DNA from: a virus
IMG/VR virus record: IMGVR_UViG_3300009788_000311
Location: 1-22,890 of that record
DNA: 22,890 bases
Strand: one strand, 5' to 3'
Below are positions 5,303 through 20,261 of the stretch, piece after piece. Made by a program: the position numbers and the translations under genes. Every line of letters starts with the position of its first letter. Position 1 is the first letter of the stretch. Below the pieces are notes generated by a model. That model had not been told where the DNA came from. It searched no databases and saw only the letters and a program-made list of their open reading frames with translations.

Positions 5303-6754
5303 ATGGGATATGCATTAGAGAGAGCTATAACTGAAGACCGCATTGAAGCGGGGCGTCGAACTTACCGGAAAGACCGGAAGCTTTGGGACGCTCAGCTAAA
5401 TACCGTTGTCTCCCGCTACTGGGGTGGACACCGCCCACACTTCTTACAGAAGATCTTTCTATCTTGTAAACAGGATCGTGAAGTCTTCTTCGGTGGCGCG
5501 GCGGGTGGCGGGAAGTCTGACGCGCTTCTCATGGGCGCTCTGGAGTACATGAACATTCCCGGATACTCCTCATTGATCCTCAGACGAACCTATGCGCAGT
5601 TGGGTAAGGCTGATTCGATCATGTTCCGCGCTCAACAATGGTTGGCGAAGTATCCGGAGATTCGATGGAACGAACAGAAGCATCAGTTCCTGTGGCCGAA
5701 CGGCGCGACCCTCGAATTCGGTCATCTTCAATACGATAAGGATTGCTACAACTACGACGGACCCGCTTACCAATACGTCGCCTTCGATGAGTTAACTCAG
5801 TTCACAGAGTATCAATACAAGTTCCTCTTTGGACGTGTTCGCCGACCGAGTCGAGGTCTTCTATCGAAGGTTCCTCTCCGGGTCCGTGGGGCGTCTAATC
5901 CGGGCGGTATTGGACATGATTGGGTTAAGGGGCGTTTCGTCACGAAAGAGACAGCGGTCGCTCCTTTCATCCCGGCGCTGATTGCGGACAACCCTTCTCT
6001 TGACGCGGTAGCTTATCATCGAATGCTGGCAGAGCTTCCGCCTATTCTCCGGAAGCAACGCGAAGAAGGTGACTGGGAAGTAACTCCGGACGGTCTGATC
6101 TTTCAGTCCGAATGGTTTCAGGACTATGTCGATCAAGCTCCTAAAGACTGCTATCGCTTTCGCTTCTGGGATCTGGCAGCAACCGATAAGAAGGACGCTG
6201 ATTACACTGTCGGCGCTCTCGTCGCAATGGATGGGCGTGGAGATATCTTCATCGAAGATATTGTTCGTGGCCAATGGAATCCCGGCAAGGTCGAGCGAGT
6301 GATTCAAGCGACTGCGCAAGCGGACGGGAACGGCGTTAAAATCCGAATAGAGCAGGAGCCCGGCGCTTCCGGAAAGCTAACGATAGGAAACTTTGCACGG
6401 CTACTGATCGGCTATGACTTCCAGGGCATCCCGTCGAGCGGTGCGAAGGTGACGCGCTGGACTCCTCTCGCGTCGGCGGCGAACAACGGACTTGTGAAGA
6501 TTGTCAATGCACCTTGGAATCATGACTTCATCTCGGAGCTTGTAAATGTTCCGGAAGCTGGACATGATGATCAGGCGGATGCAGCTTCCGGCGCGTTCCT
6601 CCAGTTAGCAAATAATCGACCTGTCGCAGTCGGCGTCTCTCGTGTTCGCGACAAAAAGAAAGCGGAACCTGAAGAGACCACTATCGAGAAGGACGTTCGA
6701 GAACTACTCAAGCAATCAATGAAGAACAAGGACCGAGAGAAGGTGAGCGTATGA
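5303..6754 (+). CDS. Terminase large subunit
   Basis: ATP-driven motor and nuclease that packages phage DNA through the portal. In the 483 residues: Walker A GGAAGGGKS (64-72), Walker B VAFDE (159-163), coupling motif SNPGG (about 198-202), and nuclease acidic residues at RFWDLA (D290), RIEQEPG (E350/E352) and HDDQADA (D422-D426). Length is normal for the family. ATG 5303 has a poor SD, but the next in-frame starts would cut the N-terminal helical region. No small terminase is found beside it. It overlaps the sigma-like gene by ATGA, so the two are probably translated together. Confidence 0.93.
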   Translation: MGYALERAITEDRIEAGRRTYRKDRKLWDAQLNTVVSRYWGGHRPHFLQKIFLSCKQDREVFFGGAAGGGKSDALLMGALEYMNIPGYSSLILRRTYAQLGKADSIMFRAQQWLAKYPEIRWNEQKHQFLWPNGATLEFGHLQYDKDCYNYDGPAYQYVAFDELTQFTEYQYKFLFGRVRRPSRGLLSKVPLRVRGASNPGGIGHDWVKGRFVTKETAVAPFIPALIADNPSLDAVAYHRMLAELPPILRKQREEGDWEVTPDGLIFQSEWFQDYVDQAPKDCYRFRFWDLAATDKKDADYTVGALVAMDGRGDIFIEDIVRGQWNPGKVERVIQATAQADGNGVKIRIEQEPGASGKLTIGNFARLLIGYDFQGIPSSGAKVTRWTPLASAANNGLVKIVNAPWNHDFISELVNVPEAGHDDQADAASGAFLQLANNRPVAVGVSRVRDKKKAEPEETTIEKDVRELLKQSMKNKDREKVSV

Positions 6755-7410
6755 TAACGATTCCTCAATCACTGAACCTTAACTCGGAAACGGACGACTA
6801 CAAGGAAGATGGTCCGGAAGTCGTTCCTTCCGGAAGGTCCCAAGTACAAACGCTTGTCGAAGACAACGGTGGAAAGTTACGCGATGTCCTCCCCTTTGTA
6901 CTCTCGATTGTACAGCGCGTGAAGAAGACAAACAATATCGGGAACGTCACACACGAAGAGATGGTCGCGGTTGCTCTGGCGGCTCTTGCGAAGTGTCGTT
7001 ATCGCTTGAAACCGAAGAGCGGGAAATTGACGACTTACGCTTATCGAGCAGTTAAAGGAGCTATCCAAGACTTCATCGCAGCAGAGCTTCGACACTATGG
7101 GAAAGTAACTCCGGTCAATCCTATCGTGTTCCATTCGTTGCAGGCTTCGAATCACTTCGAGGAGAAGCTCTCAAACAAGCGGCTCTTTACGCGAGTTCTC
7201 GACGCGCTGGAACAGATCGAACCGCTGAAAGCTTACATTGTCCGGAAGCATTTCCTCGATGGCGTCCAAGAGTATGTTCTCGCGAAAGAGCTAGGTCTGA
7301 CGACTCAGAACATCTCGTCTATTCGCAGAGAAGCTTTCGCAGACATCCGCGCGATAATGGGCGCGACGGCGACTGGCACGGTTCAGTGGGTAGCGAATCA
7401 CGACAATTAA
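6751..7410 (+). CDS. Sigma-70-family-like RNA polymerase sigma factor
   Basis: The 219-residue product shows a sigma region 2-like segment (about 47-112), with HEEMVAVALAALAKCRYRL then GKLTTYAYRAVKGAIQDFI, comparable with the 'F(S/T)TYA..W/R.V+.AI' core that binds the -10 element. A region 4-like segment (about 146-202) has a helix-turn-helix, LAKELGLTTQNISSIRREAF, which would contact the -35. Region 3 is short or absent. It overlaps TerL by 4 bases and precedes the portal gene, an odd place for a transcription factor. It may direct polymerase to late promoters. Alternatives are a degenerate sigma-like regulator or a small-terminase substitute using the HTH. Confidence 0.75.
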   Translation: MITIPQSLNLNSETDDYKEDGPEVVPSGRSQVQTLVEDNGGKLRDVLPFVLSIVQRVKKTNNIGNVTHEEMVAVALAALAKCRYRLKPKSGKLTTYAYRAVKGAIQDFIAAELRHYGKVTPVNPIVFHSLQASNHFEEKLSNKRLFTRVLDALEQIEPLKAYIVRKHFLDGVQEYVLAKELGLTTQNISSIRREAFADIRAIMGATATGTVQWVANHDN

Positions 7411-7431
7411 GGAGTGCTAGGAGAACTGACT

Positions 7432-8799
7432 ATGAATTTCACAAACTCTTTCCGGAAGGCTGGGCGCTTCTTCACAAAAGCCGAGACCGCTCAGACTCCG
7501 GGTATTATTTCCGCTGTCTTCTCAGCTTCCGGAAGCGGCTCCGGAATGTTTGGCGGGAAGTTTAGTTTCACGAAGGCGGTATCTTCCGGATACAAAGATC
7601 TCGTTTGGGTCTATCGATGCGTCGCAAAGAAGGGCGAGAGCATCGGCTCTGTCCCGTGGAAGGTTTACCGGAAGGCGACGTCTAGCTCTGATCGCGAACA
7701 TCTGATCGACCATCCACTTCAAAAGCTGATCGACCGTCCAAACAAATACACAGACAGGACTCAGTTCTTCATTCAGTGGATTTCTGATCTCGACCTCGGA
7801 GGAAACTCCTATTGGGAGATCGCGCGGGAAGGCGGAAGAGATTCCGGACTTCCTATCGGTCTTTGGCGGATGCGTCCGGACTGGACAACTCCGCGACCGG
7901 GGAAAGATGTCTTCCTGAAGGACTACAAATTTGACTCGGGTTCCGGGACTCCCGCGTATTTCGAGGTTGATAACGTGATCCACATGAAATATGTCGATCC
8001 CGTTGATCCCTACGTCGGTATGAGTGTTATTCAAGCGGCGGCGCGAACGATCTTAACCGAGAACGCGGCTATCGGTTGGAACAAATCTATCCTCGATAAC
8101 TCAGGCGTCCCCAACGGTATTTTGAAAGTTCCGGTTCAGACGATGTTGGCGCAGGATAAAGCGACGCTTCAGGAGAACATAGAAGACGAGTTCGCGACTG
8201 AGGATTCTCGCCATCGTCCTATGATTCTTTGGGGCGGGATGGAATGGGAATCGATGTCACTCTCGCAGAAGGACATGGATTTTCTCGAACAGAGGAAATA
8301 CAACAAATTCGAAATCTGTGCTGATCTTGCGGTTCCGCCTATGGTGGTCGGCGCTTTAGAGAATCCGACTTATTCAAACTACGGGGTCGCGCGTCTCTCA
8401 TTTTGGGAGGACACGATTACTCCGTTACTCGATTGGTTGAAGGGACATTTGAACTATCGTCTTGCTCCCTACTTCGGTCCGGATATTGAAATTGACTATG
8501 ATCTTTCTCAGGTTCCAGCAATGCGGGAAGCGTTCAAGCAACTTGTCGAGACGGCGAAGACCTTGTACGAAATGAACTACCCGATCAACGCGATCTCGGA
8601 ACGGCTGAATCTCGGAATGGAAGCTGTACCGTGGGGCGATTCCGCATGGATTAATCAGAGCTTGATTCCGACCGTACCTGTTGACGGTGGCGCGGTACAA
8701 CCGGCAGACGAAGATCTTTTGGACGATGAAGGCAACCCTCGTGATCCTTACCGCTTACAACCGGCTGAGGAAGAAGCGCGGCGGGGGCGTCTTGTCTAA
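7432..8799 (+). CDS. Portal protein (HK97-like family)
   Basis: Forms the dodecameric ring at the capsid vertex through which DNA enters and leaves and to which the terminase docks. The 455-residue product shows family hallmarks: LVWVYRCVAKKGESIGSVPW near the N-terminus, HPLQKLIDRPN, a DLGGNSYWEI core, VIHMKYVDP, GMSVIQAA, and the KFEICADLAVPPMVVG stem region. I chose ATG 7432 because AGGAGA lies seven bases upstream; the frame is also open to a GTG at 7414. The acidic, low-complexity C-terminus is usual. Confidence 0.92.
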   Translation: MNFTNSFRKAGRFFTKAETAQTPGIISAVFSASGSGSGMFGGKFSFTKAVSSGYKDLVWVYRCVAKKGESIGSVPWKVYRKATSSSDREHLIDHPLQKLIDRPNKYTDRTQFFIQWISDLDLGGNSYWEIAREGGRDSGLPIGLWRMRPDWTTPRPGKDVFLKDYKFDSGSGTPAYFEVDNVIHMKYVDPVDPYVGMSVIQAAARTILTENAAIGWNKSILDNSGVPNGILKVPVQTMLAQDKATLQENIEDEFATEDSRHRPMILWGGMEWESMSLSQKDMDFLEQRKYNKFEICADLAVPPMVVGALENPTYSNYGVARLSFWEDTITPLLDWLKGHLNYRLAPYFGPDIEIDYDLSQVPAMREAFKQLVETAKTLYEMNYPINAISERLNLGMEAVPWGDSAWINQSLIPTVPVDGGAVQPADEDLLDDEGNPRDPYRLQPAEEEARRGRLV

Positions 8800-8819
8800 A
8801 CGGTTAGGATCAAGACGAT

Positions 8820-10700
8820 ATGATATTCCTTGCGACTCCGCTCTCTCAACTTCCGACAGAGGAAGTCTCAGTTGCTACTCTTCCGGAAGAGATTCAGAAT
8901 TGGATTAAGTCTGTCTACCGCGATTGTTCTCCATTCTTTGAGCTTCCGGAGAGAGTGAGCTTCCGGATGGTTCGCTCTGTTCTTAAATGGAAAGCAATCG
9001 ACGCGGAGAGACGACCGTTAGAGGCGAAGTGGGGAGAGCGTCTCGCGGACGACTTCGAGCGATGGGGAAGAGCGGTCGGTCGAGTGTACACACGAACGGA
9101 ACGGATCGGCGACGCGCTCGACGTTGCGGACGATCTGATCCGGATACAGTTCCGGAATGAACTCGCTCTTCTGTGGGTTGAGGTCGGGAAGAAGTTCTAC
9201 CGAAGCACGGAAGCTGACATTCTCGGTAAGGCGATCTCAGACAACTTCACTGAACTAGATACACTCGATGACGCAGAGTTTCAGGCGTATGTCTCCCGCG
9301 CGGTCGCTCAGAAGGTGACAGCGGTCGCGGGTTCAACAAAGCGGGCGATAGCGGAGACAATCGAGCGCGGACTTCGAGACGGCGACTCGATTAGAGATAT
9401 CGTTGGCAAGCTTCAGTCAGGACTCGCGTTCGGAAGACATCGCGGGTTCTTGATCGCGCGGACGGAAGTCATTGGAGCTTCGAACGGAGCAACTCATTTC
9501 GCTAACGGAAAGCACTACGACAGGGCGACAACGGAGAAGGAATGGTTAGCAACGCGAGACGGGCGCGTTCGAGCGTCTCACAGTGCGGCGAACGGGCAGC
9601 GTGTCGGCTTCTCCGAGACATTCTCAGTCGGTCATGCTCAGCTTATGTTTCCGGCTGATACCGAATCCGGCGCGGGACATCCGGAAGAAGTGATCAACTG
9701 TCGTTGTACTCTGCTCTATCACACAACTGGAACCGGGACAACGAGTCCAACCGGAAGGGCTCCGCGTCGGCGTCGTGTTCCGGGCGCTCCCGGCTCTCCC
9801 TCACAAGTGGCAGTGGAAGAGATTACAGCGGCTTCAGTGCGTCGGCAAGTGATTGACGCGCTAGAAGACGTAGGGAAAGAGATCGAAGCCTTAAAGGATA
9901 TCCATAGGGGTTTGATCAATCGAACGAACAAAGCACTAGCCAATTACAAGCGTGTCCGCACACCGGAGAATCTAGAGGTTTACAACGCACTGTTCCAGGA
10001 AGCAACGGACATCGGGAAGCGACTCCCGAAGATGTACAAAAAGAGCGCGGATGAGTTTTTGAAGATTTGGAATCCTTCCGGAAAGAAGCGGACTAAGATC
10101 GAGTACGTTAAGGATCAGTTCGGAAAGGGGCGCTTCAAACAAGCAAACTTTGACGAGAGCAAAAGGTTCATGGAAGGTTTAGGCGGTCTTCCAGATCAGA
10201 AAGAACTGAAGATCCAATGGCGAAAGGTTGACGCACGGGACAGACATCGAGCGTCTCAGTACGATGGCGACGCGCATATCAAGCAACCGGATGGAAGCTA
10301 CAAGCGAGAGCATCGCTCGACGATAAAGCTTGATACACATCATACAGCGGAAACCTACATCCATGAGACGGGTCACGCCTTTGATGCAAACTCGAAAGAG
10401 TTCTCTGACAAGGTAGAAGCGCACTACAAAAAGCGGACGAAGGGCGAACCTCTGGAGAAGCTCTCGGACCTGACCGGCAACCCGAATTATAAAGACACTG
10501 AGGTCGCGCGGCGTGATCAGTGGATAACGGCGTATGAGGGAAAGGATTATACTGCTATGGGGATTCGGAACAAGTCAGGAAACTATGCTTCTGAGGTTAC
10601 GAGTATGACCGTTCAACAACTTTATGAGAACCCGGCACGTCTTGCGCTGCAAGATGAGGATACCTTTGATTTCTTCTGGAATCTGTTCGTAGGACCCTAG
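8820..10700 (+). CDS. MuF-type minor head protein with C-terminal metallopeptidase-like domain
   Basis: Residues about 1-300 are a phage head morphogenesis (Mu gpF/SPP1 gp7) domain, with the signature EWLATRDGRVRASH, then FPADT and VINCRCTLLY. Such proteins sit in the capsid near the portal. A Pro/Arg/Ser-rich linker (about 305-330) and a basic helical stretch follow. The C-terminal ~170 residues hold YIHETGHAFD, with the zinc-binding HExxH at 515-519, and a candidate third ligand Glu at 592 (ASEVTSM), as in gluzincins. At 626 residues it is much longer than plain MuF proteins. The extension may be an injected effector or a head-maturation protease; both are inference. The stop overlaps the convergent leftward gene by 3 bases. 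Confidence 0.88.
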   Translation: MIFLATPLSQLPTEEVSVATLPEEIQNWIKSVYRDCSPFFELPERVSFRMVRSVLKWKAIDAERRPLEAKWGERLADDFERWGRAVGRVYTRTERIGDALDVADDLIRIQFRNELALLWVEVGKKFYRSTEADILGKAISDNFTELDTLDDAEFQAYVSRAVAQKVTAVAGSTKRAIAETIERGLRDGDSIRDIVGKLQSGLAFGRHRGFLIARTEVIGASNGATHFANGKHYDRATTEKEWLATRDGRVRASHSAANGQRVGFSETFSVGHAQLMFPADTESGAGHPEEVINCRCTLLYHTTGTGTTSPTGRAPRRRRVPGAPGSPSQVAVEEITAASVRRQVIDALEDVGKEIEALKDIHRGLINRTNKALANYKRVRTPENLEVYNALFQEATDIGKRLPKMYKKSADEFLKIWNPSGKKRTKIEYVKDQFGKGRFKQANFDESKRFMEGLGGLPDQKELKIQWRKVDARDRHRASQYDGDAHIKQPDGSYKREHRSTIKLDTHHTAETYIHETGHAFDANSKEFSDKVEAHYKKRTKGEPLEKLSDLTGNPNYKDTEVARRDQWITAYEGKDYTAMGIRNKSGNYASEVTSMTVQQLYENPARLALQDEDTFDFFWNLFVGP

Positions 10701-10966
10701 TAGATAAGTTCCGGAAGCTCTTCCTTCTGGGATTCTTCAATGACGTAGGAACCGGGGAAAGCTTCGACAACGGCGCGGACTCGATTGTCTTCCAGGTCCG
10801 GACTGTACTCGGGATCGCCTTTATTGAGAAGTGGACTCGCGGACGCGGGTCCATACAAGCGGTTCAGGTGACGAGCGACAAATGAGTCTCGAAGAACAGA
10901 CCATCGCCCTTCGTTCCAGACCGCTTCGACGGTCACGGTATCCAAAGCTAACATAACCTTTGTCAT
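10697..10966 (-). CDS. Hypothetical protein (89 aa), last gene of leftward insert
   Basis: Unrecognised. The product begins MTKVMLALDTVTVEAVWNEG, has a central basic part (RDSFVARHLNRLYG), and an acidic C-terminus (EESQKEELPELIY). It is the distal gene of a four-gene leftward operon from the cassette at 11517. AGGAG lies 12 bases before the ATG, a rather long spacing. Its stop overlaps that of the MuF gene on the other strand, a tail-to-tail junction that marks the left edge of the insert. Confidence 0.68.
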   Translation of the reverse strand: MTKVMLALDTVTVEAVWNEGRWSVLRDSFVARHLNRLYGPASASPLLNKGDPEYSPDLEDNRVRAVVEAFPGSYVIEESQKEELPELIY

Positions 10967-10981
10967 GACTTGATCATACTC

Positions 10982-11224
10982 CTAGTGTCGCGTGTTGAAC
11001 TTCTCTCCGTCCTCGAAGACGGAGACCTGAAGTTCGAAGTACTTGTGATTGACGAAGAGCGGAAACGTGACGAGCGCAAGCGGCTGAACCGCGCGGAAGG
11101 GATCGAACTCGGGATAGGATACGACCGCGTCTTCCGGCTTGCAGAGAAGGGCGGCGCGTTGGCGACGTGAGAGAGTTAGCGCGGCGCGGGAGCGGATAAC
11201 GTTGCTGATATCGTTTGAAGTCAT
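10982..11224 (-). CDS. Hypothetical protein (80 aa) in leftward insert
   Basis: Unrecognised. The N-terminus is helical and basic (NVIRSRAALTLSRRQRAALL), followed by likely beta segments (LALVTFPLFVNHKYFELQVSV). There is no membrane helix. AAGGA lies eight bases upstream of ATG 11224, and the ATG overlaps the stop of the 34-codon gene before it (ATGA). It is followed 15 bases later by the gene at 10697-10966. The arrangement supports a genuine operon member of unknown function. Confidence 0.7.
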   Translation of the reverse strand: MTSNDISNVIRSRAALTLSRRQRAALLCKPEDAVVSYPEFDPFRAVQPLALVTFPLFVNHKYFELQVSVFEDGEKFNTRH

Positions 11225-11325
11225 CGGGAGAGTCCTTTCAGTTTCTGAGAGACGCGGTAGTCGTAGGACGGGACGAGCAAGAACTCGACCACATCGAGGA
11301 TTAGATTCTCAAGTTTGCTCAGCAT
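11221..11325 (-). CDS. Very small protein (34 aa) in leftward insert
   Basis: Reads MLSKLENLILDVVEFLLVPS and ends VSQKLKGLSR. The N-terminal half is an amphipathic or weakly hydrophobic helix. Support comes from a strong SD (AGGAG, eight bases before the ATG) and from an ATGA overlap with the next gene, which fits exactly between two neighbours. No family is recognisable at this length. It might act at the membrane with the 59-residue protein upstream. Confidence 0.6.
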   Translation of the reverse strand: MLSKLENLILDVVEFLLVPSYDYRVSQKLKGLSR

Positions 11326-11336
11326 CTCAGCAACTC

Positions 11337-11516
11337 CTAGCGGGAAAGACGGGTGCAAGCCGAACCGTTCTCATTCAGGTAAACTGCGGAAGCGTTCGCG
11401 GCAGTATTTCCAGGAAGGTTCCGGATGATTGAAGGCGCGAAGTAGAAAACCGCGAATGCGAAACCGAAGAAGATTCCCTCGATCAGTTCGGCGTTTGCTG
11501 CTAATGTCGTTTCCAT
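11337..11516 (-). CDS. Small membrane protein (59 aa), first gene of leftward insert operon
   Basis: Begins METTLAANAELIEG, followed by one hydrophobic, Phe-rich segment (about residues 15-32, FFGFAFAVFYFAPSI), then a polar C-terminus ending ACTRLSR. The ATG at 11516 lies six bases after TATAGT of a complete cassette, so it is probably leaderless; METT fits the cassette start pattern and equals that of the gene at 2625-3203. It heads an operon of four leftward genes set within the late rightward genes. Small membrane proteins in such inserts often alter host or superinfection properties, but nothing here proves it. Confidence 0.7.
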   Translation of the reverse strand: METTLAANAELIEGIFFGFAFAVFYFAPSIIRNLPGNTAANASAVYLNENGSACTRLSR

Positions 11517-11571
11517 GATCTAACTATAAACCTTCCGGAAGGATCTGTCAAGAGAAATCTTCCGGAAAGTT
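11517..11571 (-). promoter_or_regulatory. Leaderless promoter with paired TTCCGGAA operators (insert copy)
   Basis: TTGACA (complement of 11546-11551), 17 bp spacer with TTCCGGAA (11533-11540), TATAGT (11523-11528), TAGATC, ATG at 11516; second palindrome 11560-11567. The spacer begins GATCC where the early-array copies have GAAGC or AAAGC. It is 8 kb from the early array but otherwise equal. Confidence 0.87.
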
Positions 11572-11589
11572 AAGAAAAGTTTTTCGAGG

Positions 11590-11736
11590 TTAAAACAGAC
11601 CTTCTCTTTCCATGGCGACGAACTCCGGTTTGAACTCCTCATAGGCGGGAGTTCCGTAGGCGGGGAAGTCGTCGCTCTAGAGAATGACCATCGGCGCGGG
11701 TTCAGCGGCGACTGCGATGTTCCATGTTTTTGTCAT
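11590..11736 (-). pseudogene. Small gene interrupted by an in-frame amber codon
   Basis: A start at 11736 has GGAGG ten bases upstream and overlaps the preceding stop as ATGA. The frame reads MTKTWNIAVAAEPAPMVIL, then TAG (11677-11679), then 28 further sense codons beginning SDDFPAYGTP and ending MEREGLF, TAA. The composition after the TAG is protein-like and the gap to the next cassette is filled exactly. A single G-to-A change from TGG (Trp) would explain it. Other readings are a sequencing error, suppression, or a real 19-residue peptide. TAG ends many other genes here, so general recoding is unlikely. Confidence 0.55.
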
Positions 11737-11960
11737 TTTCTGTTAACCTCCAGTGCTTCAATCATGACCTTTCGGGAGACGCGCTTTCTGTCGAGGTAGA
11801 AGGTCGAACGGTAGTGGTTACGCTGGAAGCGGGTCCGCGCTCCTACTGGGACTACATAGCACTCAAAGCGTCCTTCGCGGTATACACCGTAGTTGCAAGC
11901 GTCGGCGTCGGCGTCTTTCTTCGCTTTCTCGATTAGTTCGATTAGAGTAGGCGTCTTCAT
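11733..11960 (-). CDS. Hypothetical protein (75 aa) in leftward insert
   Basis: Unrecognised basic protein. The N-terminal helix (TLIELIEKAKKDADADACNYG) is followed by a segment rich in Arg and Tyr (FQRNHYRSTFYLDRKRVSRK). The start at 11960 follows the -10 box TAAGCT by six bases, with no SD, so it is probably leaderless. It is the first gene of a second leftward operon in the insert; the second gene is the amber-interrupted one. It begins MKTPT rather than M-E-x-T. Confidence 0.7.
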   Translation of the reverse strand: MKTPTLIELIEKAKKDADADACNYGVYREGRFECYVVPVGARTRFQRNHYRSTFYLDRKRVSRKVMIEALEVNRK

Positions 11961-12015: not shown

Positions 12016-12058
12016 AAGAAAAGTTTTCGAGGGAATCCGGGGACAGTCCGGAAGGACT

Positions 12059-12090
12059 CGCGCGACTCCTGAGCGGAACCGATAATTAAC
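12059..12090 (+). promoter_or_regulatory. Candidate late promoter, CGCGCG-N16-GATAATTAAC
   Basis: CGCGCG (12059-12064), 16 bases, GATAATTAAC (12081-12090), 46 bases upstream of the protease gene. The same two blocks with the same spacing recur at 18426-18457, also directly after a leftward insert. CCGATAA resembles the -10 of sigma-28-group promoters (GCCGATAA), while no TTGACA is present. It would restart rightward late transcription. Confidence 0.6.
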
Positions 12091-12136
12091 GAACGTATAG
12101 GGGCGGAATCGCTCCACTAGGAAGGTCACAGACTAT

Positions 12137-13090
12137 ATGCTCCGAAAAAAGATTGACCCTGACTTTACAAAGGTCACAGTCGTCGAGGAAGAAGGCTCAT
12201 CTTCCGGCTACCTCGAAGGCTACGCCAGTGTCTTCAACAATGTTGACCTCGGAGGGGATGTCGTTCGGAAAGGCGCTTTCAAGAAAACGATCAGAGAGCG
12301 ACTGAAGAAAGGGATGATCCTTCTCTACGACTCTCACGCGGTCTATGAGGGAACAAGCGCGGTTATCGGCGCTGTCACAGCGGCGGAAGAGCGCGACGAA
12401 GGTCTTTGGTTCCATGCTTCCTTCTCCGCTGTAGCGCGGGCGCAAGATGTCCGTACGAAGGTCAAAGAGAAGATCCTTCGCGCTCTGAGCTTTGGTTACG
12501 ACGTGATCAAGAGCGCTCCGTCGACTGAGTTCGGGGAAGATGTTACTGAACTGGTAGAGCTTAGGCTCTGGGAAATCTCAGTCGTCCCGTGGGGAATGAA
12601 TCCGAAGGCGGCGTCTGATGTTGTCAAAGGGATTGGTCTCGGACAAGAGTTCGAGTTCGCGGCGAAAAATCATCCCTTCGATCCTGTCGGCGCTCGGAAG
12701 CGCGTCGCGGAATGGGCGGAGAACGATCCGTTCCTTTACTCGAAGGCGTTCATATGGGCAGACGAAGCGAACGATCAGTCTCCTCTCGGGTATGCTCTCC
12801 AGGTCGTCGATATTGTGGACGGCGAACCGAAGTACATTTTGAACGCGGCGAAGACGGCTCTCACCAGAACTCGCGGCGACGAAGAAGCTGTCTGGAAGAA
12901 GGACAGCGAAGAGATCACATCTGACCTGAAGACTCTCTATCAGAAGGTCGATGAAAAATTTCCGGAAGTAGAGACTCCGGATACCGAATTCAAGGGTCTG
13001 TCCGAATTGTCGAAAGGCGTTCAGGACTTCGCCCTCGCAACAACCCTCCGGAAACTTCGAGAGGGTATGGGTACATTGTCCGCGAAATAG
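12137..13090 (+). CDS. Prohead maturation protease (HK97/S78-like) with C-terminal extension
   Basis: Cuts the capsid scaffold domain during head maturation. The N-terminal ~170 residues match the family: GYLEGYASVFNNVDLGGDVV, catalytic His in YDSHAVY (H67), catalytic Ser in RALSFGY (S118), and ELRLWEISVVPWGMNPKA. The protein is 317 residues, longer than the usual ~200; the extension (from about 175) is charged and includes VGARKRVAEWAEND and a coiled-coil-like end. An extension of this kind could serve as scaffold, but this is inference. AGGAAGG lies about 11 bases before ATG 12137. It is the first gene after the leftward insert and its candidate promoter. Confidence 0.9.
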   Translation: MLRKKIDPDFTKVTVVEEEGSSSGYLEGYASVFNNVDLGGDVVRKGAFKKTIRERLKKGMILLYDSHAVYEGTSAVIGAVTAAEERDEGLWFHASFSAVARAQDVRTKVKEKILRALSFGYDVIKSAPSTEFGEDVTELVELRLWEISVVPWGMNPKAASDVVKGIGLGQEFEFAAKNHPFDPVGARKRVAEWAENDPFLYSKAFIWADEANDQSPLGYALQVVDIVDGEPKYILNAAKTALTRTRGDEEAVWKKDSEEITSDLKTLYQKVDEKFPEVETPDTEFKGLSELSKGVQDFALATTLRKLREGMGTLSAK

Positions 13091-13215
13091 GCGGATGACC
13101 TCGGTCACTGTTCGGACACTTCTTCCGGAAGCCGAATGAGCAAGCCGACAGAGGGTTGAGCAGCCGATCCTTGATCACTGCGAGAGAGAGAGACTTCGAA
13201 ACAGGAAAGGGAAAC

Positions 13216-14514
13216 ATGGACGTACAAGCGGAACTGAAAACTATCAATGAGACTTTCGCAGGGTTCAAGACTCTGAACGAGGAAGCTCTCGCGGAAGTCA
13301 AAAAGTATGGCACTGTCAGCGGCGATCTTGAAGCCAAAATGACGAAGATGTCCGACGACATGGACGCTTCCGAAGTGAAGCTGAACGAGCGGCTCACGGC
13401 TATCGACGCGAAGGCGGAGAAGCTGGAAGTCATGGAGAAACAGATTGAGGACTTCAAGGCTTTCGAGTCCGAAGTTCGGTCTCGCTCCAATCATAACGGT
13501 GGCGCTGGCGGTGACGATGGTGACACCGTTAAGGCGATGCGGAAGTCGATCTTCTGGAAGGCGATTCGCGGTGGACTCACTCCGGACCTGATCGACCTTC
13601 ACAAGACCATCACCGACGACGAGAAGGAATGGCTCGGTGTCTCTGCTCAGAAAGCAATGATTGTCGGCGACGACGAAGCGGGCGGCTACCTCGCTCCCGA
13701 AGAGTACGTGAACGAGATCATCGCGGACACGGTCGAGTTTTCTCCGATTCGGAGTCTTGCTCGAATCCGGACGACTTCTCGGAAGGCTGTCACGATTCCG
13801 AAGAAGACCGGATCAATCTCCGCGTCTTGGGTTGAAGAGACCGGCACTCGCGGCGATTCCGGAAACCCGACTTACGGAATGGAGCGTCTCCAGTCCTACG
13901 AAATGCATGGACTGATCAAGGTCTCAAAGCAGGAACTCGAAGATGCGGCGTTCAACGTCGAAGGCTTCATTCGCGAAGAGCTTTCCGAACAGTTTGGCTC
14001 TGCCGAAGGAACCGCGTTTGTTACCGGAACCGGAACGGGTCAACCCCAGGGCGTTCTTTCGAATGCTTCAGTCACTTCAGTCAATTCCGGTCATGCGACT
14101 CAGATCACGGCTGATGGTCTGATTGATCTGTACTTCGAGCCGAAAGAGATTTACGCGAACAATGGCGTCTTCGTCATGGCGCGTTCGACTCTGAAAGCGA
14201 TCCGGAAACTGAAGGACGGGCAGGGTCAGTACATCTGGACTCCTGGTTTCAAGACGGAAGCCAAACCGGCGACGATCCTCGACCGTCCTTATGTGGTCGC
14301 TCCCGATATGCCGACTATCGCAGCTTCAGCTTATCCGGTCGTCTTTGGCGACTGGCGGCGGGCGTACTACATCCTCGACCGGGTCGTGATGGAAATCATC
14401 ACTGATCCGTATTCGAGTAAGGCGACTGGCATGATCGAGATCAGCGCTCGTAAGCGTGTTGGTGGACAGGTCGTTGCTCCGTTCGCGATCAAGAAACTGA
14501 AGATTTCGGCGTAG
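13216..14514 (+). CDS. Major capsid protein (HK97 fold) with N-terminal delta/scaffold domain
   Basis: Forms the icosahedral shell. The 432-residue product has an N-terminal coiled coil (about 1-95, TFAGFKTLNEEALAEVKKYG onward) acting as built-in scaffold. A Gly-rich linker (NHNGGAGGDDGD) follows, then the HK97 core: GGYLAPEEYVNEII, ARIRTTSRKAVTIPK, SASWVEETG, GFIREELSEQFG, and GTGTGQPQGVL. The protease next door would remove the N-terminal part. AGGAAAGG before ATG 13216 fixes the start; the frame is open further upstream without an SD. There is no sign of truncation. Confidence 0.93.
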   Translation: MDVQAELKTINETFAGFKTLNEEALAEVKKYGTVSGDLEAKMTKMSDDMDASEVKLNERLTAIDAKAEKLEVMEKQIEDFKAFESEVRSRSNHNGGAGGDDGDTVKAMRKSIFWKAIRGGLTPDLIDLHKTITDDEKEWLGVSAQKAMIVGDDEAGGYLAPEEYVNEIIADTVEFSPIRSLARIRTTSRKAVTIPKKTGSISASWVEETGTRGDSGNPTYGMERLQSYEMHGLIKVSKQELEDAAFNVEGFIREELSEQFGSAEGTAFVTGTGTGQPQGVLSNASVTSVNSGHATQITADGLIDLYFEPKEIYANNGVFVMARSTLKAIRKLKDGQGQYIWTPGFKTEAKPATILDRPYVVAPDMPTIAASAYPVVFGDWRRAYYILDRVVMEIITDPYSSKATGMIEISARKRVGGQVVAPFAIKKLKISA

Positions 14515-14520
14515 GTCCTA

Positions 14521-14556
14521 CGCCTTTTGACGGGACCTTTCCGGAAGGTTAGGTCC
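14521..14556 (+). other. Hairpin between capsid and next gene, containing TTCCGGAA
   Basis: GGGACC and GGTCCC (about 14532-14556) flank TTCCGGAA (14539-14546), so the transcript could form a stem with a second inner fold. No T-run follows. It may stabilise the 3' end of the capsid mRNA, or may simply carry a dispersed palindrome. Confidence 0.4.
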
Positions 14557-14581
14557 CATTCAAAAACAGGAGAAAATGAAA

Positions 14582-15082
14582 ATGTCTTCAGTCTTAAATT
14601 CTTTTGATCAAGCGGACGCATCAGGCGACAACAAACTGAATCTCGGTGGAACCGTCGATGTCACGGGAACCATGCAGCGTCACGGCGCAAGCGTCGGCGA
14701 CGCACTGACCTACACGAAAGCGGTTCGGATCACGCTTGCGGAACTGATCGCAGGATACGAACTCGTCGCGGCTGTCACTGGTAAGTCGATCCGGGTCACG
14801 AACTACTATCTTCGGATCATCGGCGGCGCGGCTACCGCTGCGGATGACATTCGCATTCAGGACAACAACGGGACTCCCGTTATCGTCGTTACGGCGGCTG
14901 TGGCGGCTCTGACGGAGAATGCAGAGGTCGCGGGTCTCGGACCCGCTATCGCGAACGTCACGAAGGGCGCGGGATGGATGGCGCTTCTCACGGCGTCGAA
15001 GGCGCTCGATATCGTGGAGACCGGGACAACCATGACGACGCTGACTCACGTTGACGTTATCGTTCAGTATCAGATCGGCTAA
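14582..15082 (+). CDS. Hypothetical structural protein (166 aa), possibly capsid decoration
   Basis: Low-charge, Ala/Thr/Val/Gly-rich protein of likely beta structure (KSIRVTNYYLRIIGGAATAA, PVIVVTAAVAALTENAEVAG). It resembles small head- or fibre-associated proteins in composition only; no family is recognised. AGGAG lies nine bases before ATG 14582 but only three before an ATG at 14576, so I prefer the later start. Its position after the capsid gene suggests a head decoration or accessory protein. Confidence 0.78.
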   Translation: MSSVLNSFDQADASGDNKLNLGGTVDVTGTMQRHGASVGDALTYTKAVRITLAELIAGYELVAAVTGKSIRVTNYYLRIIGGAATAADDIRIQDNNGTPVIVVTAAVAALTENAEVAGLGPAIANVTKGAGWMALLTASKALDIVETGTTMTTLTHVDVIVQYQIG

Positions 15083-15147
15083 TTCCTTCCGGAAGGATTC
15101 GATCAAGTAGAAGAGAGAAAATTCGAAAAGAGGAAGGAAAAAGAACC

Positions 15148-15579
15148 ATGTTCAAACTTGCAGGCAATGTCAAACTGAACCGGGCGATTGACTACGCTCA
15201 GATCACCGCATCCAAAACCGGCGACGTGATTATCGACACTCAGGGCTACGACGATATCTTCTTCATCGTTCACGTCCATGCAGCGACTACCGCTGACGCT
15301 GATCACTACTTCACCATGAAGATGCAAGAGGGAGACGCGGCGGCTCTTGGTGACGCGGCTCTTGTCGCGGACGGAACCACGTATCCGAACCGCTACTTTG
15401 GCGAGTCGCCTTCAGATCGAGCACTCGATCTCACGACTCAGGCGGACGGGTTCATTGTGTTTGGTGTCCGTCTTCACAAGCGGTACGTCCGGCTCATGGC
15501 AATCGAGACCGGAACCTCTGACGTCACGATCAGTGCGGTCGCAGTCCTTGGAAATCCGAAGACCGCTCCGACTGTCTAA
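15148..15579 (+). CDS. Hypothetical structural protein (143 aa), possibly head decoration
   Basis: Beta-rich protein (DVIIDTQGYDDIFFIVHVHA, GFIVFGVRLHKRYVRLMAIE) with the look of small phage structural proteins that sit on or beside the capsid; no family is assigned. AAGGAAAAAGAACC before ATG 15148 is a good ribosome site. A 14 bp perfect palindrome, TCCTTCCGGAAGGA (15084-15097), lies in the gap before it. It ends 84 bases before the connector gene. Confidence 0.78.
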   Translation: MFKLAGNVKLNRAIDYAQITASKTGDVIIDTQGYDDIFFIVHVHAATTADADHYFTMKMQEGDAAALGDAALVADGTTYPNRYFGESPSDRALDLTTQADGFIVFGVRLHKRYVRLMAIETGTSDVTISAVAVLGNPKTAPTV

Positions 15580-15608
15580 CGAAGTCGCCTTTCGCGACGG
15601 TCCAGATG

Positions 15609-15638
15609 AGATCTCGCGCCTTTCGGGGCGCGGGGTCT
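15609..15638 (+). terminator. Strong hairpin, possible terminator or processing site
   Basis: A 12-pair stem (15609-15620 with 15627-15638, core CGCGCC/GGCGCG, outer pairs include G-U) with a six-base loop. A smaller stem, GTCGC/GCGAC, lies just upstream (about 15585-15600). No clear T-run follows, so full termination is doubtful. It could lower expression of the connector genes after the abundant head proteins. Confidence 0.45.
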
Positions 15639-15663
15639 TGTCTATTGCTGTACTGTGGGAGTT

Positions 15664-16356
15664 ATGCCGATCTTTGATCAAATCTCTCTAGCTGAAAGTT
15701 CTTCCGGAAGGGCGCGGTCGCGGGGCGTCGATGTCACGCGGACTGTCAATCCGGAATTCAATCCGGTGACAGCGGCGGATGTAATCGCTCACCTGAAGCT
15801 ACCTTCCGGAAGTTCCGAAACAAACATCGATAGGATTATTGGGGCGGTCGTGGGCGCGATTGAGAAGTATACGAATCGCGGTTATGTTAAACAGACGATC
15901 CGACAGATTCATGATCAAATCGGACCAATGGTTAAGCTTTGGGTTCGTCCCGTCCTAGAGGTCGTTTCTATCCAGACAATTGCTTCTATGGCGGCGGATG
16001 ACCTTGTTTTGATGTCCTCTGACGACTATGCGGTTTCCATCGATAAGGACAAGATTCGACCGCGTTCGGCGTGGCCGACACATCGCGGCTTTTCTTCCTT
16101 CGTCGTCACCTTCAATGTCGGATACAACGATCATCCGGATAGTCCTTCAGGTCCAGAGATTATAACGGCACAAGCGGCGGTCCCGACTGATGTTCACGAA
16201 GCGGTCCTTCAGTGGATTGGTCATCTCTACAACAACCGAGAGGGACAATCTGGAGAAATGAAATATGAGGTCATCGCGAAACGGATTGGAATCATTCCCG
16301 CAAATGTCGCGATCTTGCTTGAAGGCTACCTCGACCGGAGACTGACGCTCTCATGA
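15664..16356 (+). CDS. Head-tail connector protein (gp6-like)
   Basis: Adaptor ring below the portal. The family pattern is seen: NPVTAADVIAHLKLPSGS near the N-terminus, IDRIIGAVVGAIEKYTNRGY, a long beta region (VRPVLEVVSIQTI), VTFNVGYND, and a C-terminal helix, DVHEAVLQWIGHLYNNREG. The length (230 aa) is normal. The start is uncertain: ATG 15664 has GGGAG too close, and GTG 15655 adds three residues with no SD. It overlaps the next gene as ATGA. Confidence 0.85.
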   Translation: MPIFDQISLAESSSGRARSRGVDVTRTVNPEFNPVTAADVIAHLKLPSGSSETNIDRIIGAVVGAIEKYTNRGYVKQTIRQIHDQIGPMVKLWVRPVLEVVSIQTIASMAADDLVLMSSDDYAVSIDKDKIRPRSAWPTHRGFSSFVVTFNVGYNDHPDSPSGPEIITAQAAVPTDVHEAVLQWIGHLYNNREGQSGEMKYEVIAKRIGIIPANVAILLEGYLDRRLTLS

Positions 16357-16730
16357 AACGGACGAAGAAGAGTCGCGCGTCAACCGGAGATCTTCGTTTC
16401 TATCTTGCTCTTGCACGTCCGGAAACTACTCCCGATGATATCGGCGGGAGCCCTCGACAATCATGGACGCTGATCACTGAGCTATGGTGCGACATAATGC
16501 CGCGCTCCGCAAAGGAACGCATGATCGGCGCTCAGCTTCAGGAGATGACTTCTCACTTGATCGAGTCCCACTATTGGGAAGACTGGAAAAAGGGAGACCG
16601 GCTCTCCTACACGGACGCGAACACGGACAAGACACACTACTTCCGGATACTCGCACGGCTTGATATAAATCAGTCGGCTACCCGGCTCTTCTGGGAAGCT
16701 GAAGAGTTCGACGGGTCCAGTGCCGAATAA
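16353..16730 (+). CDS. Head closure / head-tail adaptor protein
   Basis: The 125-residue product resembles the SPP1 gp16/HK97 gp7-like head-tail joining family: GDLRFYLALARPETTPDDIGG, SWTLITELWCDIMPRS, a central TSHLIESHYWEDWKKGDRLSY (compare 'H.I..RY...I..g.Ri.') and a C-terminal strand, TRLFWEAEE. It plugs the connector after packaging. The start overlaps the previous stop (ATGA), and its end overlaps the next gene by 11 bases. Confidence 0.82.
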   Translation: MKRTKKSRASTGDLRFYLALARPETTPDDIGGSPRQSWTLITELWCDIMPRSAKERMIGAQLQEMTSHLIESHYWEDWKKGDRLSYTDANTDKTHYFRILARLDINQSATRLFWEAEEFDGSSAE

Positions 16731-17277
16731 TTCACCTATCGAAGCAAAGCTCATCGGCGCAACCGCACTGAAGCGGAAGTTCAGTCTCATGGATCAGCGA
16801 GTCAGAGGCGCGATGAAGCGTCTTGTCAATGAGCACTCTCGCAAACTCACGAACCGGGCGAAGAAGGAAGCTCCGGTAGACATGGGTCAGCTCAGAGCGT
16901 CCATACGTCCTCAGTTCTTCTCCAACGGTCTAACCTCTCGAATTGCCACGAACACAGGTTACGCGGCGTTTGTGGAGTACGGAACGGGTCCTCTGGGACG
17001 CATGACCGCAAAGAACACACCGAAAGGTTACGTTCACTCTGTCTCGCTCAAACGTCCTCCGCCAGACGTCATCTTCGAGTGGGTCTGGCGGAACCGTAAG
17101 AACATGGGCGGCTCGGGATGGACGAAGTCACAAGCGAAGGGCGTCGCGTTCCTCATTGGAAGAGCAATCGGAAAGCGCGGTCTTCGAGCGCGGGCATTCA
17201 TGGGACCGGCTTACATCGAGACGAAAAAAGAGTTTGAGCGGGACGTTCGGCGCGAGTTCAAAAGGACGGCGAAATAA
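16720..17277 (+). CDS. HK97 gp10-like tail component
   Basis: Begins with GTG 16720, inside the end of the preceding gene. The 185-residue product shows the gp10 pattern: an N-terminal helix, LIGATALKRKFSLMDQRV, then RAKKEAPVDMGQLRASI and GYAAFVEYGTGP. These proteins act at the head-tail junction or in tail assembly. The C-terminus is basic with GRAIGKRGLRARAFMGPAY. No strong SD is seen before the GTG, and there is no alternative start before the conserved core other than internal codons. Confidence 0.85.
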   Translation: MPNNSPIEAKLIGATALKRKFSLMDQRVRGAMKRLVNEHSRKLTNRAKKEAPVDMGQLRASIRPQFFSNGLTSRIATNTGYAAFVEYGTGPLGRMTAKNTPKGYVHSVSLKRPPPDVIFEWVWRNRKNMGGSGWTKSQAKGVAFLIGRAIGKRGLRARAFMGPAYIETKKEFERDVRREFKRTAK

Positions 17278-17699
17278 TGACAGCGATCAAAGGCGGCTCT
17301 TCTCTCTACGGCGTGTCACTCGCGATCTTCCAGAAGGTCTCGGTCGCGTTCCAGGATGTTGGCGAAGTCTTTGACGGATTCCTTCCGGAAGAATTAGACT
17401 CGGTTGATTTTCCATACGCGATTATCGAAGAGATGACCGAAGGGCAAGAGAACCTTTTGAACCGCGCGGTTCGAATGACCGTCGTTACGATCAAGATCTA
17501 CACAGCGTATCGTGGAACGAAACAAGCGAAGCAACTCGCGGGGAAACTTGTAGACGCACTCGAAGAGATGGACCTCTCTCCTGAAGAAGGATGGGTCTTT
17601 CCGAAGACGAAGTATCTCGATACTCATTTCCTACGGGAAGACGACGTCCGCTTCACAGCGATCATGAGATTCGAGGTCATGGCGGAGAAGCTGGCATGA
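17277..17699 (+). CDS. Tail terminator / tail completion protein (DUF3168-like)
   Basis: Likely caps the tail tube and fixes tail length. The 140-residue product has the layout of the family: SLYGVSLAIFQKVSVAFQDV, FDGFLPEE, FPYAIIEE, then the alternating strand-helix part VVTIKIYTAYRGTKQAKQLAGKLVD and a final strand, TAIMRFEVMAEK. The ATG overlaps the preceding stop by one base (TAATG), a coupled arrangement. It overlaps the next gene as ATGA. Confidence 0.82.
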   Translation: MTAIKGGSSLYGVSLAIFQKVSVAFQDVGEVFDGFLPEELDSVDFPYAIIEEMTEGQENLLNRAVRMTVVTIKIYTAYRGTKQAKQLAGKLVDALEEMDLSPEEGWVFPKTKYLDTHFLREDDVRFTAIMRFEVMAEKLA

Positions 17700-18106
17700 G
17701 TGAAGACGAAGAACAACTCGGACCGGGGGAAGAGTGGGAATACTACGACGAAGACGTTCCGGAAGAAGCACCGACCGCGCCTCAATCTCAAGAGGAAATT
17801 GATCAGGAACGCGGTTACTCTGAACTCTCTTGGAAGAACTTCCCGCTCTTCCAGTGTCTCTCCTGTAAGTTCAATCACATCTCTCCGGATGGAAGCGAAG
17901 ACAACATAAAAGCGCACGTCTGGAAGTTTCATCAGATGGCGGAGAATCTCGCTATGAACGCGGCGCTCGAAAGCACGAAGCGTCCGGTCGAAGCAGAACT
18001 CTATGATCCTTCCGGAAGACTGATTGAAGAACGCGACGCGACTGAAGAAGAACGCGCGGAAGATTCCTTTCTTAACTTCGATCCTCCGAAGACCCTCAAC
18101 GGCTAA
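17696..18106 (+). CDS. Hypothetical acidic protein with CCHH zinc-finger-like motif (136 aa)
   Basis: The first ~45 residues are strongly acidic (DEEQLGPGEEWEYYDEDVPE). A central segment FQCLSCKFNH ... AHVWKFHQ has a C-x2-C pair and an H-x4-H pair about 18-20 residues later, a plausible C2H2-like zinc site. The C-terminus is again acidic. Position between tail terminator and tail tube suggests a tail or regulatory role, but zinc fingers are unusual there. The ATG at 17696 overlaps the previous stop. Its stop overlaps the convergent leftward gene by 2 bases. Confidence 0.75.
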   Translation: MSEDEEQLGPGEEWEYYDEDVPEEAPTAPQSQEEIDQERGYSELSWKNFPLFQCLSCKFNHISPDGSEDNIKAHVWKFHQMAENLAMNAALESTKRPVEAELYDPSGRLIEERDATEEERAEDSFLNFDPPKTLNG

Positions 18107-18402: not shown

Positions 18403-18457
18403 GGTTTTAGAATACGCGCTTCTCCCGCGCGGGTTCTTTCCGGACCCGATAATTAAC
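18403..18457. promoter_or_regulatory. Divergent promoter: leaderless leftward box and CGCGCG-N16-GATAATTAAC rightward
   Basis: Leftward: TATTCT (complement of about 18409-18414), AAAACC, ATG at 18402. Rightward: CGCGCG (18426-18431), 16 bases, GATAATTAAC (18448-18457), 48 bases before the gene at 18506. The CGCGCG lies inside the palindrome CCCGCGCGGG (18424-18433). The rightward element equals the one at 12059-12090 in both blocks and spacing. Confidence 0.58.
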
Positions 18458-18505
18458 ACTCGAAGAAGGTTCGCGGACGCGGACCGGAAGGAAGGATCAG
18501 GATCT

Positions 18506-18856
18506 ATGGCAAGAGCAACTCTAGTAAAAACGACCGCTCCGGGTCCGTACACGTCTGATGGCGTCGCAGTCACTTGGACAGCGGCGGTCGTTGCTGACAA
18601 AGAGGAATTCGTCATGGAAGGTAATGACTTGCTCCTAGTTCGCAACGAAGACGCATCCCCGCACACGTTCACTATCACGTCGGCGGAAGATCGCATGGGG
18701 CGAGTGGGTCACATTACCGCTCAGTCTCTTGCCGCGTCGGCGTGGGCGGTTCTCGGACCTTTCAAGAAACTGACCGGATGGCAACAGTCAACCGGCGTCC
18801 TCTATATCGAAGCGGACGATATCAATATTGAGTGGGCGGTTATCAAGCTCGCGTAG
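18506..18856 (+). CDS. Hypothetical structural protein (116 aa), paralogue A
   Basis: Beta-rich, low-charge protein with TTAPGPYTSDGVAVTWTAAV, EEFVMEGNDLLLVRNED, HTFTITS and WAVLGPF. It is clearly related to the next gene: both have APG.Y...G...T, A....EEF.M.G..LL...N.D..PHT.TI.S, a V.GPF-type segment, G-W....G.L..EAD...IE..VI+. Such small repeated beta proteins before a tail tube may be tail or virion accessory proteins. AAGGA upstream of ATG 18506 fits an SD. It is the first gene after the candidate promoter at 18426. Confidence 0.75.
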   Translation: MARATLVKTTAPGPYTSDGVAVTWTAAVVADKEEFVMEGNDLLLVRNEDASPHTFTITSAEDRMGRVGHITAQSLAASAWAVLGPFKKLTGWQQSTGVLYIEADDINIEWAVIKLA

Positions 18857-18874
18857 AAGGGAGATTCCGGAAAG

Positions 18875-19228
18875 ATGCCAAGACAAGCACACACACCAGA
18901 CGCGGCTCCGGGTAGCTATCCTACTGCGGGCATCGTCTTGACTCAGACAGCGGCGGATGCCGCAAACCTTGAGGAATTCAAAATGACCGGGCGTGAACTT
19001 TTGATCGCGTGGAATCCGGACGTTGGTCCTCACACCGTTACTATCGACTCGGTTGCAAATCAGCAAGGGCGGACACTAGACGTCACAGCGGATTCAATCG
19101 CGGCGGGAGCAACTCACGTTTATGGACCCTTCACTACAAAGCTCGGATGGGTTCAGGGAGACGGAACGCTAAACTTTGAAGCGGACTCCGCCTTAATCGA
19201 ATTCAGCGTTATTCGGATGCCGACCTGA
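18875..19228 (+). CDS. Hypothetical structural protein (117 aa), paralogue B
   Basis: Tandem paralogue of the gene before it. It has the same order of features: AAPGSYPTAGIVLTQTAADA, EEFKMTGRELLIAWNPD, PHTVTIDSVANQQGR, HVYGPFTTKLGWVQGDGTLN, FEADSALIEFSVIR. Identity looks moderate, spread along the entire length, with no gaps of note, so the duplication is not recent. AAGGGAGA lies ten bases before ATG 18875. It is followed by the tail tube gene, with which it is probably cotranscribed. Confidence 0.75.
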   Translation: MPRQAHTPDAAPGSYPTAGIVLTQTAADAANLEEFKMTGRELLIAWNPDVGPHTVTIDSVANQQGRTLDVTADSIAAGATHVYGPFTTKLGWVQGDGTLNFEADSALIEFSVIRMPT

Positions 19229-19277
19229 TCGAAGATTCCGGAGAGAAGATCTTTCCAGACAGGAGATATAAAACAGA

Positions 19278-19712
19278 ATGGCAAGTCCAGCTATTTCCGC
19301 CTTCGGAACACTACTCCAGATCGGCGACGGCGCGACTCCCGAAGTTTTCGCAACGGTCGCAGAGCTACGGACTATCTCGGGTCCGTCTCTGAACGCCGAT
19401 ACAATCGACGTCACAACTCACAACACGGCGACACCTTTCCGGCGTTTCATCTCCGGACTGATCGACGGTGGAGATGTCACGTTCGATATCAATTTCATCC
19501 CTCAAGAGCCGACGCACTCCTACAGCGCGGGGATCTTGAAAGACGTGGTCAATCGGACTGCTCGAAACCTGAAGATCGTCTTTCCGGACAGTGGCAACAC
19601 TGAATGGATCATCCCAGTTATCTTCGTGAACTTCGAGGTCTCGTCCGACCCCGCCGATGTTCTCATGGCTTCAATCACTGCAAAGGTCGCAGGTCCGCCT
19701 ACGTTCGCGTAA
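19278..19712 (+). CDS. Major tail tube protein
   Basis: The 144-residue product fits the siphovirus tail tube family: ISAFGTLLQIGDGATPEVFA, VAELRTISGPSLNADTIDVT, THNTATPFRRFISGLIDGGDV (a typical 'G..D.G.V' turn), FDINFIP, then IPVIFVNFEVSSDPADVL and ITAKVAGPP. It polymerises into the tail tube around the tape measure protein. AGGAGA lies 11 bases upstream of ATG 19278. Its place before the chaperones and tape measure is standard gene order. Confidence 0.87.
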   Translation: MASPAISAFGTLLQIGDGATPEVFATVAELRTISGPSLNADTIDVTTHNTATPFRRFISGLIDGGDVTFDINFIPQEPTHSYSAGILKDVVNRTARNLKIVFPDSGNTEWIIPVIFVNFEVSSDPADVLMASITAKVAGPPTFA

Positions 19713-19874
19713 CGCGACTTAATCTGCCCTCATAAGGCGGAAACGATCTGAGCGGCGCTACGGAGCGTTTGAGACAAGTGAGGGAGTTCCGGTCCTCTCC
19801 CTCACTTGAATCGTGTCACGGTCTCGATATCGCAAGGAATCGGGGTCATAGGAAGACCGGAGAAAGAAGATTCG
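19713..19874 (+). other. Structured gap with a 12 bp perfect hairpin after the tail tube gene
   Basis: No gene. CAAGTGAGGGAG (19775-19786) pairs perfectly with CTCCCTCACTTG (19797-19808) around a ten-base loop. A smaller fold (CGCT ACGG AGCG) lies upstream at about 19756-19767. No T-run follows the large stem. It may be a partial terminator or RNase III site setting the ratio of tube protein to chaperone. Confidence 0.6.
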
Positions 19875-20261
19875 ATGAGCGAATCAAAAGCTACGATAGC
19901 AAAGCAAGTTCCAGGCATCGACGGTCGTCCGACTGTCGCCATCAAACTAGGTGGACAAACCCGTCATCTACTCGTTACCTTCGGCGCTCTGCTCAACATT
20001 GAACAACTTACCGGAAAGTCAATCATCGGCGGCGACGCATGGGGCGCAGATCTTCAGATCAGAGATGTGAAGCTCATGACGTTGGCGGCGCTGGAATGGT
20101 GCAACGACAAACTGACAGCGGAAGAAGTTGGCAAGTGGATACACGTTCAAAACATGCCGTTCGTTCTTCAGAAGGTTACGGAAGCTTGGACGAAAGGTCT
20201 TTCGGCGACTGATCCGGTCGAGGACTATCGCCCTTTGGAGATTCGCCCTCAGGCAGCGTAG
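19875..20261 (+). CDS. Tail assembly chaperone, upstream frame (gpG-like)
   Basis: The 128-residue product reads MSESKATIAKQVPGIDGRPT, VAIKLGGQTRHLLVTFGALL, NIEQLTGKSII, and ends LEIRPQAA. It has the size and position of tail assembly chaperones that escort the tape measure protein during tail assembly. I chose ATG 19875; the frame is open from 19806 but AGACCGGAGAAAGAAG lies just before 19875. Near its 3' end is CCCTTTG (20231-20237) in the phase X-XXY-YYZ, where some ribosomes should slip to -1 and continue into the next frame. Confidence 0.85.
   Translation: MSESKATIAKQVPGIDGRPTVAIKLGGQTRHLLVTFGALLNIEQLTGKSIIGGDAWGADLQIRDVKLMTLAALEWCNDKLTAEEVGKWIHVQNMPFVLQKVTEAWTKGLSATDPVEDYRPLEIRPQAA
20231..20237 (+). 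promoter_or_regulatory. -1 programmed frameshift site CCCTTTG
   Basis: In the chaperone frame the codons are CGC CCT TTG, giving C-CCT-TTG, a canonical slippery heptamer. The -1 frame is open from 20213 to 20656, so the heptamer lies within the 46-base overlap. A small stem (GCC CTCA GGC, 20245-20254) follows within ten bases, and ACCC/GGGT can pair further down. Confidence 0.8.

Follow-up and report, generated by a model that had tools for sequence, protein, structure and literature searches.

Phage sigma factors read promoters that are well conserved and low in copy number (PMC4331800). In Salmonella phage 7-11, gp47 has been shown experimentally to read eight bipartite late promoters of the form GTAAtg-(16)-aCTA (PMC8948821). 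Both in 7-11 and in phiEco32, where the factor is gp36, the sigma gene is found within the functional (middle) gene group, with phage promoters ahead of it (PMC4331800). The locus presented here resembles these systems, in which a few well-conserved phage-specific late promoters are read with the host core polymerase; its own promoters, which are predicted from sequence, are also few and conserved, as described for phage sigma factors (PMC4331800). Unlike in 7-11 and phiEco32, the sigma gene stands between TerL and the portal gene, no late-type site precedes its operon, and the promoter sequences of the two phages (GTAAtg-16-aCTA; tAATGTAtA) differ from those found here.

Sigma-like factors have also been associated with terminases. 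In the Bacillus prophage PBSX, the gene for Xpf is close to the terminase genes, before them rather than between TerL and portal, and in phage T4 the late promoters and the sliding-clamp machinery differ from the system described here. Xpf is likewise a sigma-like prophage factor (PMC4243946), to which the protein described here is tied only by a weak match to a related profile (phrog_248). T4 gp55 is also a late phage sigma factor, with a known link between sigma and TerL (PMC3012670); we found no sequence match to it. Phage psiM2 has a related TerL, with the small terminase upstream of it, and TerL is followed directly by portal, with no gene between them.

Gene layout and the sigma-70-family gene

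The 22,890-nucleotide stretch analysed here, referred to as the window, is a genome fragment with three rightward units and two leftward gene islands:

3292..10700, + strand: first rightward unit, with small genes, ThyX (4247-5161), TerL, sigma, portal and a MuF-like gene (8820-10700); PF02511, PF04860, PF04233
5303..6754, + strand: TerL, the large terminase; PF17289 (2.5e-12), PF03237 (1.3e-6), phrog_979 (1.4e-101), TIGR01630 psiM2_ORF9
6751..7410, + strand: sigma-70-family gene, almost certainly; N-terminal tail 1-44, region 2 at about 45-112, linker 113-140, region 4 at about 141-204
7432..8799, + strand: portal; PF04860 (2.5e-72); start at 7432 from an AGGAG upstream, read from the sequence
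10697..11960, - strand: leftward gene island 1, ORFs; the island has sigma70-type promoters of its own (11551, 11995)
12137..18106, + strand: second rightward unit, with prohead protease, major capsid, connectors, head-tail and tail completion genes; PF04586, PF05065, PF05135, PF05521, PF04883, PF11367
18103..18402, - strand: leftward gene island 2, a single ORF conserved in the relative G001, whose ATG follows a TATTCT -10 at a distance of six bases
about 18506..22890, + strand: third rightward unit, with tail tube (family matches below cut-off) and tape measure (PF10145, 7.9e-50), which runs off the window

Units 1 and 2 each end tail-to-tail against a leftward island with a 4-base overlap, the MuF-like gene meeting island 1, so rightward transcription must restart after each island. 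For the portal gene, the upstream AGGAG makes ATG 7432 a likelier start than GTG 7414. At its C-terminus the MuF-like protein is extended by a long stretch that matches phrog_33618 and phrog_20397, neither with an annotated function, and carries, by eye, an HETGH motif resembling a zinc protease. In G001, an extra rightward gene (L011 9364-9870, 168 aa, possible signal peptide), absent from the window, lies between the portal and MuF-like genes. Among the early genes, the 192-aa protein at 2625-3203 (-) matches phrog_15549, whose function is not annotated, at 1e-22, and the stretch between two leftward genes holds a 28-base inverted repeat, whose arms (1673-1700 and 1807-1834) are 93% complementary with 106 bases between them.

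The ORF at 6751-7410 starts with ATG and encodes 219 residues; the ATGA at 6751-6754 joins its start to the TerL stop, and the portal gene comes next. There is little doubt that the product is a sigma-70-family factor. Region 2 matches PF04542 (Sigma70_r2) at 27.9 bits, above the curated cut-off of 24, as it does in 4/4 homologues. The NCBIfam sigma70-ECF model TIGR02937 scores 46.5 bits (cut-off 42.9) and spans residues 46-200, positions 10-162 of the model's 165; the relatives G001 and G003 score 49.3 bits, above the cut-off, and 38.7 bits, below it. The PHROGs family phrog_351, 'RNA polymerase sigma factor', matches at 8.2e-13. The Pfam region-4 models gave no match in the protein, and region 4 is recognised by the span of TIGR02937 and by superposition of its predicted fold on that of sigmaE (Z 10.0, 1.6 Å over 68 residues) and BldN (Z 9.4, 1.0 Å over 59 residues). 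The structure model, built from four homologues, is of low confidence (mean pLDDT 54.5) with an unreliable domain arrangement; whole-protein superposition was therefore dropped and region 4 used alone. By Foldseek, the best matches of the model among solved structures, and its named matches among viral proteins, were nearly all sigma factors. The first-pass annotation had described a sigma-factor-like gene between TerL and portal, with region 2-like and region 4-like segments and a 4-base overlap with TerL; profile search, structure prediction and conservation in relatives all bear this out.

In build the protein appears to be ECF-like, with regions 2 and 4 and a conserved N-terminal tail. As in the ECF sigma factors SigE, BldN and SigL, the two regions are joined by a short linker, TIGR02937 matches end to end, and region 4 superposes. 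The protein differs from them in being phage-encoded, in its 44-residue tail, which is conserved among the relatives, and in its predicted promoter, which is not of the ECF type. A likeness to FliA and WhiG (sigma28) is seen in region 2, which is expected to read the -10 element, while regions 2 and 4 are some 30 residues apart, leaving no room for region 3; the FliA/WhiG subfamily model TIGR02479 scores 20.2 bits against a cut-off of 189.6.

Three IMG/VR contigs (G001, 30,797 bp; G002, 8,294 bp; G003, 4,672 bp) likewise carry the gene between TerL and portal, at identities of 77-84%. Against G001, dN is 0.088 and dS 1.29, a dN/dS of about 0.07 that indicates purifying selection on the protein. 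Kept under such selection at the same place in three relatives, the gene is more than a chance ORF. The set thus comprises four contigs including the window, two of which reach the promoter sites described below. Searches of 50,697 phage records, of GTDB species genomes (by pattern) and of about 100 loci with more distant TerL genes (with the sigma profile) gave no homologue. A match at E 0.005 in this last search was rejected because its ORF holds the psiM2 portal, and a candidate in locus L003 proved to be a tail tape measure matched by chance. Of 49 records scanned with a general sigma model, 15 contained matches, three of them over the cut-off, including G001 and G002. The best TerL match in a genome, 48% identical and from an Ardenticatenia MAG, is too distant to name a host. 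In the papers searched, no sigma gene was described as lying between terminase and portal genes, which is weak evidence and does not prove absence.

A sister-phage contig, G046 (23,745 bp), was found through a shared early promoter and carries replication genes, among which lies one further feature:

L135 957-1499 of G046, - strand: second sigma-like protein, about 180 aa, only region 2 clearly matched

This protein matches phrog_351 at 7.6e-9 and TIGR02937 at 22.9 bits, below the cut-off, and the phage group may use two sigma-like proteins.

Early promoters and putative late promoters

Most genes with a promoter of their own have a -10 hexamer that ends exactly six bases before the ATG (at 344, 1168, 2147, 2571, 3203, 11516, 11960 and 18402 on the - strand and at 3292 on the + strand), a spacing from which we predict leaderless transcripts. 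Many of the leftward promoters read TTGACA-n17-TATAGT. The first rightward unit, which contains the sigma gene, also begins at an apparently leaderless promoter of host type:

3245..3292, + strand: promoter of host type for the first rightward unit; its TATTAT ends 6 bases upstream of the ATG, and TTTCCGGAAA stands at the -35 place; conserved in two relatives

The -10 hexamer reads TATTAT in the window and TATTCT in the two relatives. A scan with the four-site late promoter profile described below found no late-type site upstream of the operon. Positive feedback of the sigma factor on its own operon, which had been proposed, thus finds no support in a unit that starts at a promoter of host type.

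Early promoters of the sigma70 type carry the palindrome TTCCGGAA in their spacer. It occurs 42 times in the window against 0.8 expected (for example at 361, 2164, 3257, 6367, 6828, 12004 and 18356), 54 times in G001 and 37 times in G046. Its enrichment is 33-fold, compared with 4-fold for the next most enriched 8-mer palindrome, and inside genes 13/17 copies are kept exactly in G001, compared with 25% for other 8-mers. It may be a stoperator-like, putative binding site of a phage regulator.

The bipartite element GCGCG-n14-CCGATAATTAAC is present in two copies in the window and two in G001, at equivalent places:

12058..12094, + strand: putative late promoter A, GCGCG-n14-CCGATAATTAAC, 47 bases upstream of the protease gene; G001 counterpart 13583-13613
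18425..18461, + strand: putative late promoter B, GCGCG-n14-CCGATAATTAAC, about 49 bases upstream of where the tail genes of unit 3 begin; G001 counterpart 19949-19979

Both lie exactly where rightward transcription restarts, before the capsid genes and before the tail genes, and would leave leaders of about 45 bases. When the sites are aligned at CCGATAATTAAC, GCGCG falls at one fixed distance in all of them. At site A, the blocks TCCGGAAGGACTCGCGCGACTC and AACCGATAATTAACGAACGTATAGGG are kept in G001 and the spacer between them has changed, as expected for a promoter; at site B conservation extends over nearly all of the stretch, in part owing to an overlapping leftward promoter, and this site therefore tells less. 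Across all IMG/VR contigs, the exact element was found in three places, the two G001 sites and one contig 99.9% identical to the window phage, and is thus confined to this phage group within IMG/VR. A profile built from the four sites scores 49-56 bits at those same sites and at most 3 elsewhere in the window and G001, where it found no third site in either; since the profile was built from the sites it scores, what is informative is this gap and the lack of further sites. When the protease gene was used to look for promoter copies that had diverged further, only the known relative came back. Repetition and conservation would not suffice for a promoter claim, because a coding 12-mer, TGAACCGCGCGG, likewise recurs and is conserved in both genomes; fixed spacing, placement and rarity add weight.

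The FliA consensus is TAAAGTTT-n11-GCCGATAA (PMC2859248), and WhiG shares the FliA specificity (PMC8325347). The window element has the same geometry, an 8-mer, n11 and near-GCCGATAA, and its -10 agrees with that of FliA at 7/8 bases; the -35 block stands at the same distance but reads GCGCG. This FliA-like -10 and the likeness of the protein to FliA and WhiG in region 2 are independent observations. The stretches 12059-12090 and 18426-18457 had been singled out earlier as likely targets of the sigma factor, and their repetition, their conservation in G001 with the same spacing and the confinement of the exact element to this group strengthen that assignment. We infer that sites A and B are likely to be promoters recognised by the phage sigma factor.

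Alternative readings of the protein and its sites

The protein could be a sigma factor whose targets lie outside the window, the window genome being incomplete, while sites A and B are read by host sigma70 with an activator at GCGCG or by a host sigma factor of the FliA/WhiG type. The CCGATAAT site contains GATAAT, close to a sigma70 -10, and CCGATAA is near the FliA -10 (PMC2859248). However, neither TTGACA nor TAAA occurs at the -35 place of A and B, whereas the phage's early promoters carry a clear TTGACA, and the exact element occurs within IMG/VR only in phages that carry this sigma gene. As for targets elsewhere, no CCGATAAT site was found in the G046 contig, which covers the downstream replication part of the sister phage. 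We consider this reading unlikely but not negligible. Regulators of the Xpf/ArpU type adjoin terminase genes in Gram-positive prophages, and the protein might be a sigma-derived activator of this kind, aiding the host holoenzyme at the late promoters rather than replacing its sigma factor. A weak match of residues 117-197 to phrog_248, 'transcriptional activator' (E 0.0038), points this way, but the match to the sigma family phrog_351 is far stronger (8e-13) and the whole of region 2, including the part that reads the -10, is kept and scores over the Pfam cut-off, which makes an activator of this kind improbable.

The overlap of the gene with TerL raises another question, whether the protein has given up transcription for packaging, either as a partner of TerL or in place of the missing small terminase. 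None of the window's genes was recognised as a small terminase, whereas in psiM2 such a gene immediately precedes the related TerL, and the T4 late sigma factor gp55 interacts with the TerL gp17 (PMC3012670). Yet Pfam, PHROGs and NCBIfam returned no terminase family for the protein, its similarity to the psiM2 small terminase is not significant (best E 0.022 over 21 residues), and, as the window is incomplete, a small terminase gene may lie outside it. With both sigma regions kept, the repurposed small terminase entertained in the first-pass annotation lacks sequence support, and we regard a role in packaging in place of transcription as remote. A dual role, in which the sigma factor would open late transcription and also load the terminase on transcribed phage DNA, replacing the small terminase that was not found, is only marginally more credible and still very improbable. 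T4 extracts lacking gp55 package concatemers about 100-fold less well (PMC3012670), and a dual role would explain why the sigma gene is tied to TerL, as a compact version of the gp55-gp17 link.

A predicted feed-forward late switch

The mechanism that we consider probable as a whole combines a compact sigma factor, promoters of the form GCGCG-n14-CCGATAATTAAC and feed-forward timing. Host polymerase would read the first unit (ThyX, TerL, sigma, portal and MuF) from the host-type promoter at about 3245-3292, perhaps under the control of a factor binding TTCCGGAA, and the sigma factor would thus be made alongside low-copy packaging parts. It would then bind the host core RNA polymerase and direct it to the phage-specific promoter class, so that, once accumulated, it would switch on the capsid unit from promoter A and the tail unit from promoter B. 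Such a circuit would act as a feed-forward timer with no self-activation. We infer the core polymerase binding, the recognition of the sites by the sigma factor and the timing from sequence.

Here a sigma factor in an unusual place, the packaging operon, is linked from sequence alone to a new class of promoters, predicted down to exact coordinates, so that in vitro work can test directly how an uncultured group of phages switches to late expression. If the mechanism holds, the host enzyme would make the packaging motor and portal first, with the same operon supplying the factor that turns on the bulk proteins of capsid and tail, which would be a simple way to order assembly. The phage group would also provide a new sigma/promoter pair able to run beside the host's own.
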